The notes under the pieces are model-generated. The model saw nothing but the letters and a program-made list of their open reading frames with translations, was not told where the DNA came from and searched no databases. Shown piece after piece: positions 24,372 through 47,884 of a stretch of 64,000 nucleotides of DNA (the stretch's first letter is position 1; every line of letters begins with the position of its first letter). Both the position numbers and the translations under genes were made by a program. Source of the DNA: Acidaminococcus timonensis (lineage in GTDB: Bacteria > Bacillota > Negativicutes > Acidaminococcales > Acidaminococcaceae). Location: contig NZ_FNWH01000004.1 in assembly GCF_900106585.1 (NCBI RefSeq), positions 248,001 to 312,000 on the forward strand. The letters run 5' to 3'.

Positions 24372-24512
24372 TCCGGTTTACCTGGGAACGGACGTCCCTC
24401 ATGGGCCGTCCCTACGCAACCCACGTACTGTATTGTATGATTTCGTAGGATTTGCCCATAAGGGGAGACCGTTCCCGGGTCGCCCCCAGCGAGCTTTCTC
24501 CACACTGACGTC
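24372..24512 (+). repeat. Direct repeat bracketing malY-MATE, left copy
   Basis: Module B (24380-24416) continues into GATTTCGTAGGATTTGCCC, GGGGAGACCGTTCCCGGGTC and CACACTGACGTC. The same arrangement in the same order and strand recurs at 27369-27498, on the other side of the two genes between. Confidence 0.7.
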
Positions 24513-27203: not shown

Positions 27204-27207
27204 AAAA

Positions 27208-27322
27208 GGGGGTGTGAAAAAATGCTTTTTCACACCCCGTCACTAGTCACTAGCCGATGGAAGCCAGCTGACGCTAGCGAAATAAAGGCGCTGTGGATGA
27301 TTTTTTCACAGCGCCTTTTCAT
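27208..27322 (+). repeat. Double-hairpin repeat E, copy 1
   Basis: First hairpin 27208-27238 (GGGGTGTGAAAAA / TTTTTCACACCCC). A conserved linker contains GTCACTAGTCACTAG and GCCAGCTGACGCTAGCGAAA. The second hairpin (27284-27319) has AAAGGCGCTGTG / CACAGCGCCTTT. Near-identical copies lie at 32675-32803 and 47757-47884. It directly follows the MATE stop codon. Confidence 0.85.
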
Positions 27323-27368: not shown

Positions 27369-27498
27369 CTTTCCATACCTGGGAACGGACGCCCCTGATG
27401 GGGCGTCCCTACGCAACGTACTGTACGATTTCGTAGGGTCTACCCGTAAGGGGAGACCGTTCCCAGGTCGCCCAGCGGGCTCTTTCCACGCTGACGTC
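27369..27498 (+). repeat. Direct repeat bracketing malY-MATE, right copy
   Basis: Same order as 24372-24512: module B (27377-27413), GATTTCGTAGGGTCTACCC, GGGGAGACCGTTCCCAGGTC and CACGCTGACGTC. Confidence 0.7.
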
Positions 27499-28592: not shown

Positions 28593-28741
28593 TTGCCTGC
28601 ACTTCCTTTCCAGAACAGTTATTGAATAAGAATATTACACACGCCGATTGTACATTCTTGTTAGAAAAAGTTCAATAAAAATTTGAAAATTCTTTAAAAT
28701 AAGTTTTTTCTTGTACAAAATGAAACATCCATGACAAGAAT

Positions 28742-28784
28742 AACGGTGGAGATCCCGAAGGGAGCGTGCGATATCTCCACCGTT
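28742..28784 (-). terminator. Hairpin after tandem small peptide genes
   Basis: AACGGTGGAGAT / ATCTCCACCGTT arms, 13 bases beyond the stop codon of the second small gene on the minus strand. The T-run is weak. Confidence 0.55.
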
Positions 28785-28797
28785 ACTTTTCATCCTT

Positions 28798-28959
28798 TTA
28801 TACCCGGAATTCCCGTTTCACCATGCCGGGGATTTCCGGCTCATAGCCGGTGGCCCTGGATTTTCTGCCACCGCCTTGCAGCAGGCCCACAAACAGAAGA
28901 TCTTTCAGGCTTTCTACCGTTTTCGTCATTTCATAATCACGTTTTGCCGTCATTCCCAT
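28798..28959 (-). CDS. Tandem small peptide gene 2 (53 residues, unknown)
   Basis: ATG at 28957-28959 has GGAGGG 7 bases upstream; the stop is TAA at 28798-28800. The peptide starts MGMTAKRDYEM, has a leucine-rich stretch KDLLFVGLLQGGG (about residues 19-31) and a basic, proline-containing tail (RKSRATGYEP, then PGMVKREFRV). It resembles a leader-core layout with a possible double-glycine site, but no modification or export gene is adjacent. It shares the MGM start, size and strong ribosome site with the gene 49 bp upstream, so the two look like a co-transcribed pair. I do not recognise the family. A bacteriocin or RiPP precursor, a toxin-antitoxin remnant or a regulatory peptide are all open. 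Confidence 0.5.
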   Translation of the reverse strand: MGMTAKRDYEMTKTVESLKDLLFVGLLQGGGRKSRATGYEPEIPGMVKREFRV

Positions 28960-29008
28960 GATCCATCCCTCCTACAGTCTTACCATCATACCAGGTTTCC
29001 GGCTTCCT

Positions 29009-29161
29009 TCATTCGAAGTCGAAATATCCCATGGGATCCCAGTCCTTCAGGCTGGGGACATCGCTTCCGGACAGGCTGGGAGCGAACAGTTTCAGGATTT
29101 TCTCTTCTACACCGGCCGTTTCTTTGCCAGCCATCGTTTCTAATTTACTATTCATTCCCAT
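29009..29161 (-). CDS. Tandem small peptide gene 1 (50 residues, unknown)
   Basis: ATG at 29159-29161 preceded by AAAGGAGGGTTATT; stop TGA at 29009-29011. The peptide starts MGMNSKLETM, then has an amphipathic helix-like stretch (GVEEKILKLFAPSL) and an acidic aromatic tail (SLKDWDPMGYFDFE). No signal peptide or cysteines. The upstream region is AT-rich with a TATAAT at about 29200 on the minus strand. It forms a tandem pair with the 53-residue gene downstream. The tail compositions are complementary: this one acidic, the other basic. Function unknown. Confidence 0.5.
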   Translation of the reverse strand: MGMNSKLETMAGKETAGVEEKILKLFAPSLSGSDVPSLKDWDPMGYFDFE

Positions 29162-29330
29162 AATAACCCTCCTTTTTCGTTCTTATACTTCCGAACTATA
29201 TTTATTATATCTAAAATATTATTCGTGTATAGTGGTTCGCAGTTCATTCACAATTTCTGTTTTCTCCATAAGATAAATTGTTAATAGTTTTACGGTATTT
29301 AAGATTATTTAACGGGTTTAGTAAAAAAAG

Positions 29331-29359: not shown

Positions 29360-29393
29360 GAGCGGTACATCCAATTTTCAATGACCTGAAAGG

Positions 29394-29838
29394 CTACTCC
29401 CATTCCTTCCGTCCGCTTTTGGCAGGGATCCCCATCTTTACCCGATACTTGTTCACTGTGCGCCGGGCCGTATGGATCCCCTGGCGTTCCAGCGCCTCGC
29501 AGATGGCCTGGTCACTGAGGGGATGGCCCCTGGATGGTCTGTCTGATCAGCTGCTGGAGAGTCTTTTTCTGCCGGGAAGCATTGGCCAACGGATCCGGTA
29601 GCGGTTCATTCTCCTTATCCCAAATCCGTTTCCCCCGATATACTTCCTGGTCCGTTTCCTGCTAAGCCGGCCCTTTCACTTCACTGGGGAATTCCATGAG
29701 GGGATTGGCTTCCACGGCCTCCTGGACATACTGGTCCAGTTCCAGTGCACCCAGCTGCAGCAGCTTCATCTGCTGCACCAGATGGAGATTCAGCTGCTGC
29801 CGCAGCTGGGGTTCAAGGGTCAGTTTGGTAATTGGCAT
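29394..29838 (-). pseudogene. rpoN: Collapsed sigma-54 gene (N-terminus joined to RpoN box)
   Basis: An ATG at 29836-29838 with AAAAGGAGGTCC upstream opens a region I-like sequence (QQMKLLQLGALELDQYVQEA, then EANPLMEFP) that is unmistakably the start of sigma-54. It stops at a TAG after 58 codons, resumes in frame (about 50 codons) to LQQLIRQTIQ, then shifts frame. The second frame gives HPLSDQAICEALERQGIHTA followed by RRTVNKYRVKMGIPAKS, i.e. the RpoN box and C-terminus, ending at TAG 29394-29396. About 300 residues of core-binding and DNA-binding sequence are missing. Ribosome site and terminator survive. Confidence 0.85.
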
Positions 29839-30079: not shown

Positions 30080-31330
30080 TTAAAATTTCTTGTAAATGGC
30101 GTAAATCGTAATTCCCAGGGTAAACAGATAGCATACGGTCATGGCAATCTGCAGCAGACGAGGCTGTTTCAATCCGGCATTCACATCCTTGCGCCAGATC
30201 AGCAGGGTCACGAAAAGGCCCGCAGTGGGAGTCCCGATGGAAGTGGCCAGGTTGGCCAGGAAAATCAGGCCGGTGGGAGAACCGTTATACATAAAGCAGA
30301 CCACACACCCAAAGGCGATGCAGGCCACACACAGCCAGCGGACCAGTCTGCTTTCCAGGCTTACGTCCTTATCCAGACCGGCATTCAGCAGCACCACCCC
30401 TCTCTGGGTATTCCCCAAAAGGCTGGAGAACGCAGCACCCAGCAGTGCCAGTCCCATGACCAGGCTGGCATATTTTCCCAGGAAGGGCCGCAGCATATCG
30501 GCCAGCTGTACCGGTGCTGTAATCCGCAGACCCTGGGGATGGAGGACGATGGCCCCTACAGTGACCACTGCCCCGGAAATCAGGATTACCGTCACCACGT
30601 GGGCAATGGCATCTGCCAGCATGGTCCCGTTGAACATATCCTTCTTGTTCCACTTTTTTTCGGCTCCCAGGTAGGTACCATAGACACCGGCGGTAATGGC
30701 CGCATGGGTACTGATGAAGGCCAGGCTGTGATGGATGCTGCTCTTGGGGAACTGCCAGTGGGTCACACCCTGGAAAAAGGGACCCCATTCCGGTCCACCG
30801 GTCTGCACCAGTGTTGCATAGAAGGCCAGGATCATGGCCAGGATGCAGAGCAAAATCCCCTTTTCGACTTTGGAGTATGTATTCCTGGAAAAATACATGC
30901 CCATCAGGATGGCAATCATGATCAGCGCTCCGACCTTCCAGTTGATGCCAAAGATCAGGTTCATCCCGGCGCCGCTGCCGGAAATATTCCCGAAGGTGAA
31001 GAACAGACAGGCCAGGAACAAACAGATTCCCACGAAAGCAGCTGCCCCTTTGCCATAATAGTGACGGATGGCATGGATAATGGGCATGCCGGTCAGCATG
31101 GAAATCCGATAGCAGGTCAGCATGAAAGTGATCCCCATGAGGAAAATGGGGATGAACAGCCACAGCATGGCATACCCGTAATTGGCCCCCAGCATGGCTG
31201 CCGTGGTAATGGCCCCCGGCCCGATGACCACACCGGTCAGGATGATGCCCGGCCCGATCCGTTTCAGCATCTCCACAAATGACAATTTTTGCACTGTATC
31301 AGGGTCAAACCCCAGACGTTCGATGTACAT
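30080..31330 (-). CDS. Nramp-fold transporter lacking canonical metal motifs (copy 1)
   Basis: A 416-residue membrane protein clearly in the Nramp/MntH family by the N-terminal alignment (KRIGPGIILTGVV...GANYGYAMLW). The TM1 metal-binding motif DPGN is replaced by GPGA (residues 37-40). The TM6 Met-Pro-His motif is absent: the corresponding segment reads THAAITAGVYGTYLGAEKKW. It is therefore unlikely to bind Mn2+ or Fe2+ in the usual way. Its promoter carries two LacI-type operators, identical in layout to those before the DapA-type lyase gene. A paralogue (33059-34321) follows that lyase, so an organic substrate is plausible. Confidence 0.82.
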   Translation of the reverse strand: MYIERLGFDPDTVQKLSFVEMLKRIGPGIILTGVVIGPGAITTAAMLGANYGYAMLWLFIPIFLMGITFMLTCYRISMLTGMPIIHAIRHYYGKGAAAFVGICLFLACLFFTFGNISGSGAGMNLIFGINWKVGALIMIAILMGMYFSRNTYSKVEKGILLCILAMILAFYATLVQTGGPEWGPFFQGVTHWQFPKSSIHHSLAFISTHAAITAGVYGTYLGAEKKWNKKDMFNGTMLADAIAHVVTVILISGAVVTVGAIVLHPQGLRITAPVQLADMLRPFLGKYASLVMGLALLGAAFSSLLGNTQRGVVLLNAGLDKDVSLESRLVRWLCVACIAFGCVVCFMYNGSPTGLIFLANLATSIGTPTAGLFVTLLIWRKDVNAGLKQPRLLQIAMTVCYLFTLGITIYAIYKKF

Positions 31331-32674: not shown

Positions 32675-32803
32675 GGGGGGTGTGAAAAAAATGCTTTTCA
32701 CACCCCGTCACTAGTCACCAGTCTCTAGTCACTAGCCGATGGAAGCCAGCTGACGCTAGCGAAATAAAGGCGCTGTGGATGATTTTTCCACAGCGCCTTT
32801 TAG
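32675..32803 (+). repeat. Double-hairpin repeat E, copy 2
   Basis: First hairpin 32675-32706 (GGGGTGTGAAAA / TTTTCACACCCC). The linker carries CACTAGTC repeats and GCCAGCTGACGCTAGCG. The second hairpin 32766-32801 has AAAGGCGCTGTGG / CCACAGCGCCTTT. It follows the LacI gene by about 50 bp. Confidence 0.85.
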
Positions 32804-33058: not shown

Positions 33059-34321
33059 TTACAGGAACCGGGATCCAAAGCTGTACAGGGTCAGAGCCGT
33101 GGTAAACAGATAACACAGGGTCATGGAGATCTGCAGGACGCGCGGTGGTTTCAGCCCTGCCTGGACATCTTTTCTCCAGATCATCAGGGTCACGAAGAGT
33201 CCGGCTGTCGGAGTCCCGATACTGGTAGCCAAATTGGCCAGGAAAATCAGCTGAGTGGGCGAACCGCTGTAGGCAAAACATACAATCACGCCCAGAAGGA
33301 GGCAGGCCACACAACTCCAGCGGACCCGTTTGCTTTCCAGAGCCACTTCCCAGCCCATGCCTGCATTCAGCAGTACCACACCCCGCTGGGTATTCCCCAT
33401 CAATGCGGAAAAAGCAGATCCCAGCAGCGCGGCCCCCATGACAAATCGTGCCTTGCTGCCCAGTACGGGTTCCAGCATTCCTGCCATCTGGACTGGGCTG
33501 GAAATGGTCAGACCGGTGGGATGGAGGACAATGGCTCCCACTATAACGATGGCACCGGAAATCAGGATGACAGTCAGGACATGGGCACAGGCATCGGAAA
33601 GCATGGTTCCGTTGAACAGATCCTGTTTCTTCCACTTTTTCTCCGCTCCCAGATAAGTTCCGTAAATCCCGGCGGTAATGGAAGCATGGGTACTGAGGAA
33701 GGCCAATGATCCCAGGACACTCCCTTCCGGAAATCCCCAGTGGGTCAATCCCTGGATGAATCTCCCGGGATCCGGCCCTCCGGAAGCATACAGGGTGGCA
33801 TAAAAAGCCAGGATCATCCCCAGGATGCAGACCATGACGGCTTTTTCGATTTTGGAGTACGTATCTTTGGAAAAATACAATCCCAGCAGCAGGGCCAGCA
33901 TGATCAGCGCTCCGATCTTCCAGTCGACGCCAAAAAGAAGGCTCATGCCGGCACCGCTGCCGGAAATATTGCCAAAGGTAAAGAACAGGCAGGAAAAGAA
34001 CAGACAGATGCCCACAAAGGCTGCCGCACCATTGCCATAATAGTGCCGGATCCCATGGAGCAGTGGCATCCCGGTAAGCATGGCAAGCCGGTAACAGGTA
34101 AGCATAAAGGTGATGCTCATGATGAAGATGGGGATAAAAAGCCAGAGCATATGATATCCGTAGCTGGCTCCCAGCATGGCCGCCGTTGTGATGGCCCCCG
34201 GTCCCACCACGACACCAGCCAGTATGATGCCGGGACCGATCCGCTTCAAGATCTCCAGAAAAGTCAGCCGTTCTACGGCTGACGGGTCAAAGCCCAGTTG
34301 TTTACTTACTGCAGATTCCAT
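33059..34321 (-). CDS. Nramp-fold transporter lacking canonical metal motifs (copy 2)
   Basis: 420 residues, closely similar along its whole length to the protein at 30080-31330. It shares the same GPGA replacement of DPGN (residues 40-43) and the same TM6 segment (THASITAGIYGTYLGAEKKW). It lies 130 bp downstream of the DapA-type lyase on the same strand, separated by a hairpin, so it can be read through from the LacI-controlled promoter. An AAGGAAG site precedes the ATG. The pair probably arose by duplication within this regulon. The substrate is unknown and is probably what the lyase cleaves. Confidence 0.82.
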   Translation of the reverse strand: MESAVSKQLGFDPSAVERLTFLEILKRIGPGIILAGVVVGPGAITTAAMLGASYGYHMLWLFIPIFIMSITFMLTCYRLAMLTGMPLLHGIRHYYGNGAAAFVGICLFFSCLFFTFGNISGSGAGMSLLFGVDWKIGALIMLALLLGLYFSKDTYSKIEKAVMVCILGMILAFYATLYASGGPDPGRFIQGLTHWGFPEGSVLGSLAFLSTHASITAGIYGTYLGAEKKWKKQDLFNGTMLSDACAHVLTVILISGAIVIVGAIVLHPTGLTISSPVQMAGMLEPVLGSKARFVMGAALLGSAFSALMGNTQRGVVLLNAGMGWEVALESKRVRWSCVACLLLGVIVCFAYSGSPTQLIFLANLATSIGTPTAGLFVTLMIWRKDVQAGLKPPRVLQISMTLCYLFTTALTLYSFGSRFL

Positions 34322-47756: not shown

Positions 47757-47884
47757 AAAGGGGGTGTGAAAAAATGCTTTTCACACCCCGTCACTAGTCA
47801 CTAGTCTCTGGTCACCAGCTAATGGAAGCCAGCTGACGCTAGCGAAATAAAGGTGCTGTGAATGATTTTTTCACAGCGCCTTTT
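47757..47884 (+). repeat. Double-hairpin repeat E, copy 3
   Basis: GGGGTGTGAAAA / TTTTCACACCCC, a linker with CACTAGTC units and GCCAGCTGACGCTAGCG, then AAGGTGCTGTGA / TCACAGCGCCTT. On the minus strand it follows the secreted-protein gene ending at 47887 and can terminate it. Confidence 0.85.

Follow-up and report, generated by a model that had tools for sequence, protein, structure and literature searches.

Two small adjoining genes of Acidaminococcus, here called P1 and P2, have a promoter in common with amino-acid uptake genes, a result that had not been foreseen in an initial inspection of the DNA (hereafter, the sequence-only reading). P1 and P2 are real coding genes under purifying selection, and, from the order and spacing of their promoter elements, the pair seems to be part of a small regulon that includes amino-acid uptake. 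The genes were analyzed in a 64-kb stretch of DNA (the window), derived from an Acidaminococcus genome of 2.30 Mb in 6 contigs, in which the following features were located.

29173..29167, minus strand: ribosome site AGGAGGG of P1, seen in the sequence and kept in relatives.
29161..29009, minus strand: P1, 50 amino acids, MGMNSKLETMAGKETAGVEEKILKLFAPSLSGSDVPSLKDWDPMGYFDFE, with an N-terminal helix and the conserved tail WDPMGYFDFE.
28973..28967, minus strand: ribosome site AGGAGGG of P2, seen in the sequence.
28959..28798, minus strand: P2, 53 amino acids, MGMTAKRDYEMTKTVESLKDLLFVGLLQGGGRKSRATGYEPEIPGMVKREFRV, with an N-terminal helix and the conserved tail EIPGMVKREFRV.
28785..28741, minus strand: terminator-like hairpin after P2, from folding of the 3' flank, with only a short T-rich tail.

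The tandem of small frames with ribosome sites, separated by 49 nt and followed by a hairpin, was thus found on the minus strand as the sequence-only reading had described it. Strong hairpins also occurred downstream of P2 in all relatives. Only four ATG-initiated frames of 40-70 codons with a strong SD sequence were present in the 64 kb, namely P1, P2, the gene for ribosomal protein L34 and a fragment of rpoN, which makes the observation of P1 and P2 more than chance. Repeats of about 80-116 nt that are 78-93% similar are dispersed over intergenic parts of the window (27204-27319, 32686-32801 and 47769-47884; also 24420-24498 and 27408-27486) and create spurious frames between genes.

Homologues of P1 were detected in seven of nine Acidaminococcus genomes, including those of A. 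massiliensis, A. fermentans WCA-389-WT-5B and A. provencensis. Homologues of P2 were present in five of the nine, each time directly after P1, while A. provencensis and G008 carried P1 without P2. Internal stops were absent from all of these homologues. Comparison of P1 with its A. massiliensis counterpart yielded a dN of 0.026 and a dS of 0.32, and dN/dS ratios of P1 within the clade were about 0.1-0.2. For P2, comparison with two close species gave a dN of 0.27-0.33 at a dS of about 1 (dN/dS 0.2-0.35). The sequence-only reading had taken the frames for a true pair of small genes equipped with signals of their own and had proposed homologue searches in Negativicutes and dN/dS analysis as checks; the homologues, and a dN well below dS for both genes, bore it out. 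The C-termini of both proteins were almost invariant and their N-termini variable. P1 ends in W-D-P-M-x-(Y/F)-F-D-(F/Y)-E (in short, WDPMxYFDFE) and P2 in E-V-E-I-P-G-x-V-R-R-E-F-(R/H)-V (also EVEIPGFVRREFRV). Over the last 30 codons of P1, no pair among the three closest species differed by more than one amino acid, and dN was near zero in the P1 tail.

Outside Acidaminococcus, no P1 homologue was found in the other 371 of 380 Negativicutes genomes searched, in a GTDB-wide scan or in plasmids. For P2, the searches covered the order, viral contigs, phages and plasmids; the 63 genomes from the order yielded no homologue beyond Acidaminococcus. Neither protein had homologues in viral contigs or phages or matched a family in Pfam, NCBIfam, PHROGs or PADLOC, and a literature search returned nothing on such proteins in Acidaminococcus. 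One Enterococcus match of P2 in the plasmid search (E 0.4) and, in a PDB profile search, one short match of the P2 N-terminus to a de novo TIM barrel were judged to be due to chance. A profile comparison of P1 with P2 (3.7% probability) did not support their being mutual duplicates.

Presence and absence of the pair indicated that P1-P2 is a discrete, dispensable unit. In A. fermentans G001, rpoN adjoins the hydrolase gene, with P1-P2 and its promoter cleanly missing and the outer flanks aligned. In clade B and in A. provencensis the unit was situated in other neighbourhoods, and it was found beside rpoN in one clade only. Since two of the nine species lack P1 and P2, their role is not essential. 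A common operon with the C26 hydrolase gene was considered and rejected, because this gene is convergent with the pair in the A. fermentans relative G005.

Several observations on the surroundings are recorded here in their own right. The rpoN (sigma-54) gene of the window (29838..29390, minus strand) is a remnant, in which some 110 residues of the N-terminus, interrupted by an in-frame stop, are followed by a jump to the last 41 residues. Its DNA-binding domain was intact in seven of the eight other genomes, no second rpoN copy was found in the window's genome, and sigma-54 seems to have been lost in this species. A link of P1-P2 to sigma-54 was set aside, since the pair adjoins rpoN in one clade only and the gene is broken in the window. 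An NRAMP-like transporter gene is present twice, in diverged copies (30080..31330 and 33059..34321, both minus strand), with a LacI-type regulator-like gene in between. In G006, a long repeat tract located several kb upstream of P1-P2 (G006:C1:1868000 onwards; L023 1-4927) translates as 'NPRPTRVGRP / SIHAPLAWGD' and has the appearance of a translated CRISPR array.

Alignment of the regions upstream of P1 revealed a conserved promoter unit, whose elements in the window are as follows.

29253..29320, minus strand: further conserved A/T-rich upstream region with a TTACAATTTA-like element, from the upstream alignment.
29173..29252, minus strand: conserved promoter unit, from a phylogenetic footprint in seven P1 loci.
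29252..29247 and 29241..29236, minus strand: direct repeats TGTGAA and TGCGAA, window copy.
29209..29204, minus strand: -10 element TATAAT, window copy.
29196..29179, minus strand: 5' stem-loop GTTC...GAAC, window copy.

In the seven upstream regions, the TTACAATTTA-like element is followed by TGTGAA-N5-TGTGAA, exactly 26 nt and TATAAT, and then, after about 7 nt, by a stem-loop GTTCG...CGAAC and the ribosome site; the promoter of G008 was the most degenerate of the seven. Judging from the position of the -10 element, the stem-loop would lie at the very start of the mRNA. Its predicted folding was stable in relatives, at -8 to -10 kcal/mol, and weak in the window copy (-2.7).

A search of the genus with the promoter pattern, in which a reversed control gave 0-2 matches per genome, returned perfect or near-perfect matches before P1. 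In four species (G000, G001, G004 and G005), matches with 0 mismatches were also located before the operon of an amino-acid ABC importer. This importer has a GlnQ-like ATPase and a solute-binding protein that is closest to PEB1-type aspartate/glutamate-binding families. Weaker matches were located before an NRAMP-like transporter gene in G006 and G007; in G007, the frame after this gene begins like a hydro-lyase family protein of G003. In G003 itself, the pattern was found before a different frame of 44 codons with its own 5' hairpin.

L129 4633..4356 (G003:C2:33632..33355), minus strand: 44-codon frame, MIKMAEEKMFRTWDLVMVFLATGSFSSKKSGMTGPARQWNALIS, with the same promoter architecture.

Downstream of this frame lie a terminator-like hairpin and then the hydro-lyase family gene. 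No convincing homologue of the frame was found, and as a candidate relative of P1 or P2 it scored no better than shuffles; it is regarded as a putative ORF only. The test for a direct-repeat regulon showed the repeat-promoter architecture to be common to several operons. The covariance model had been built from most of the sites, so that its independent matches were only G008 P1, the G007 NRAMP-like gene and the G003 ORF. Sharing a promoter points to co-regulation, but not to a function.

AlphaFold (AF2) models of low-to-moderate confidence placed a helix at residues 4-26 of P1 (pLDDT 69) and 5-27 of P2 (pLDDT 59), with no confident fold in the P1 tail and low confidence in that of P2. No stretch of either protein was hydrophobic enough for a membrane span. 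Our best explanation as a whole, advanced tentatively, is that P1-P2 forms a small operon of two genes that is specific to the genus and is served by a promoter of its own and a terminator-like hairpin. On this account, which we prefer with some reserve, P1 and P2 could be small cytosolic regulators that are made with amino-acid uptake genes and dock by their C-termini. It builds on observed coding under purifying selection, tail conservation, shared promoter architecture and module-like presence and absence. Restriction of both proteins to the genus in our searches, the invariance of the tails and the lack of a TM-like stretch are consistent with it; against it stand the low-to-moderate confidence of the models and a co-occurrence with a radical-SAM enzyme (see below) that docking leaves unexplained.

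In the proposed mechanism, one direct-repeat-binding activator, probably a response regulator of the OmpR/PhoB family, would bind the repeats and transcribe P1-P2 together with glutamate/glutamine-type uptake genes, while the 5' stem-loop would probably stabilise the mRNA. Each gene would yield a soluble, presumably cytosolic small protein, consisting of a helix and an almost invariant C-terminal motif. This tail may dock on a partner, either a transporter or an amino-acid catabolic enzyme, whose activity would be adjusted when the regulon is on.

The strongest competing explanation, which we nevertheless consider unlikely, is that P1 and P2 (or P2) are RiPP precursors with the conserved tails as core, processed by a radical-SAM/SPASM enzyme encoded elsewhere; the product would then be a conserved signal or cofactor, not a diversifying bacteriocin. 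Inspection by eye of the flanking frames in the window and six relatives revealed no maturase-like gene beside P1-P2, in agreement with the sequence-only reading, which had noted that no maturation gene is adjacent. When radical SAM genes were looked for elsewhere in the genome, as it had suggested, two SPASM genes were found, both on other contigs than P1-P2; the distribution of the second was a surprise that it had not foreseen. The first was detected in all nine genomes, and the copy scanned scores as a SCIFF maturase. The second, represented by G000 C5:218583 and its homologues with 52-97% identity, was detected in all five genomes that carry P2 and in none of the other four, its absence resting on a profile threshold in G002, G003 and G008 and being shown by synteny only for G001. 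There, the gene for this second enzyme is cleanly missing between intact flanks, as is P1-P2. In the rpoN tree, G001 is the sister of G005 (94/94 support), and trees place it inside the clade holding both P1-P2 and the second enzyme, so that their absence looks like a joint loss. The tails, moreover, are the most conserved part of P1 and P2.

Other evidence argues against such processing. The second SPASM gene lies well away from the pair, with no frame resembling P1 or P2 next to it, and lacks the P1/P2 promoter, and its product reaches no NCBIfam RiPP-maturase cut-off. Relatives of the enzyme occur on unrelated plasmids without P1/P2, and two species have kept P1 without it. No exporter or protease is linked to the pair, and no C39 peptidase was detected in the nine genomes of the genus. 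The correlation, furthermore, involves nine genomes only and a test that was chosen post hoc. For the RiPP precursor idea, a linked maturase was not recognised, and the detection of an unlinked enzyme in the same 5/9 genomes as P2 is a lead, not a finding. The more specific combination, in which P1/P2 would give rise to a conserved-core peptide signal or cofactor via the unlinked SPASM enzyme under co-regulation with amino-acid uptake, is decidedly improbable. If true, a gut bacterium that ferments glutamate would have a RiPP system that lacks a gene cluster.

There is very little to be said for a class IIb two-peptide or leaderless bacteriocin, a class that the sequence-only reading had brought to mind, even though a tandem pair of about 50 amino acids with helical parts fits such a system. 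C39 peptidase (PF03412), and with it the peptidase-containing ABC exporter that was to be looked for, was detected in 0/9 Acidaminococcus genomes (control positive in 8/14). A double-glycine leader is not conserved; the GGG that had been singled out in P2 occurs only in this species' copy, is missing at that place in relatives and has no equivalent in P1. The C-termini do not diversify but are kept from species to species, P1 can stand without P2, and no immunity-like gene was recognised beside the pair.

We give hardly any credence to a toxin-antitoxin pair, for which two short adjoining genes with opposite net charge (-4 for P1 and +3 for P2 in the window) would speak. Both genes are single-copy, P1 stands alone in two species, neither product has a TM-like or hydrophobic toxin character, and searches of plasmids, phages and the defence families in Pfam, NCBIfam, PADLOC and PHROGs returned no accepted match. 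The charge difference is weak in the other clade, and the charge complementarity that had been proposed is poorly conserved. The basic tail ascribed to P2 applies to its last seven residues only, the last 18 having a net charge of 0, and the MGM start common to P1 and P2 holds in one clade and not beyond it. That P1 is a mere leader peptide or attenuator controlling P2 is scarcely credible, for although P1 comes first, immediately after the 5' stem-loop, A. provencensis and G008 retain it in the absence of P2, and it is conserved in amino-acid sequence, beyond its codons.

P1 and P2 represent two protein families without a match in the family libraries searched, in a gut genus known as a glutamate fermenter. 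Both are tied to what appears to be a regulon, marked by the repeat promoter and the 5' stem-loop, in which amino-acid uptake is included. This regulon offers a direct route to their function, from the regulator to the condition and then to the partner. The co-occurrence with an unlinked radical-SAM enzyme provides a cheap test of whether cluster-less RiPPs get missed.

Among known systems, class IIb two-peptide bacteriocins resemble P1-P2 in size and tandem layout, but P1-P2 shows no conservation of a GG leader, no recognised immunity gene and no C39 transporter in the genus. Precursors of radical-SAM/SPASM RiPPs are likewise small peptides, and an unlinked SPASM enzyme was detected in the same five of nine genomes as P2; P1/P2 differ in being unlinked to the enzyme and to any exporter or protease, and the enzyme family occurs elsewhere without them. 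Nitrogen-regulated small protein regulators, such as the cyanobacterial glutamine-synthetase inactivating factors IF7 and IF17 and the archaeal sP26, are small and soluble, as P1 and P2 are predicted to be. They are expressed with nitrogen or amino-acid genes and are considered to act by docking on an enzyme (reviewed in PMC6316151 and PMC7760959). P1 and P2 have no demonstrated sequence relation to these factors, are arranged in tandem, are confined to Acidaminococcus, and their docking on a target is putative. WalR/VicR operators consist of TGTWAH-N5-TGTWAH direct repeats, and VicR footprints glnQ in S. mutans (PMC4168254). The P1-P2 promoter similarly has two hexamers, 5 bp apart, upstream of the promoter; its half-site TGTGAA, however, has a G where WalR wants A/T, and the unit adds a fixed 26-nt spacing to the -10 element and a 5' stem-loop.
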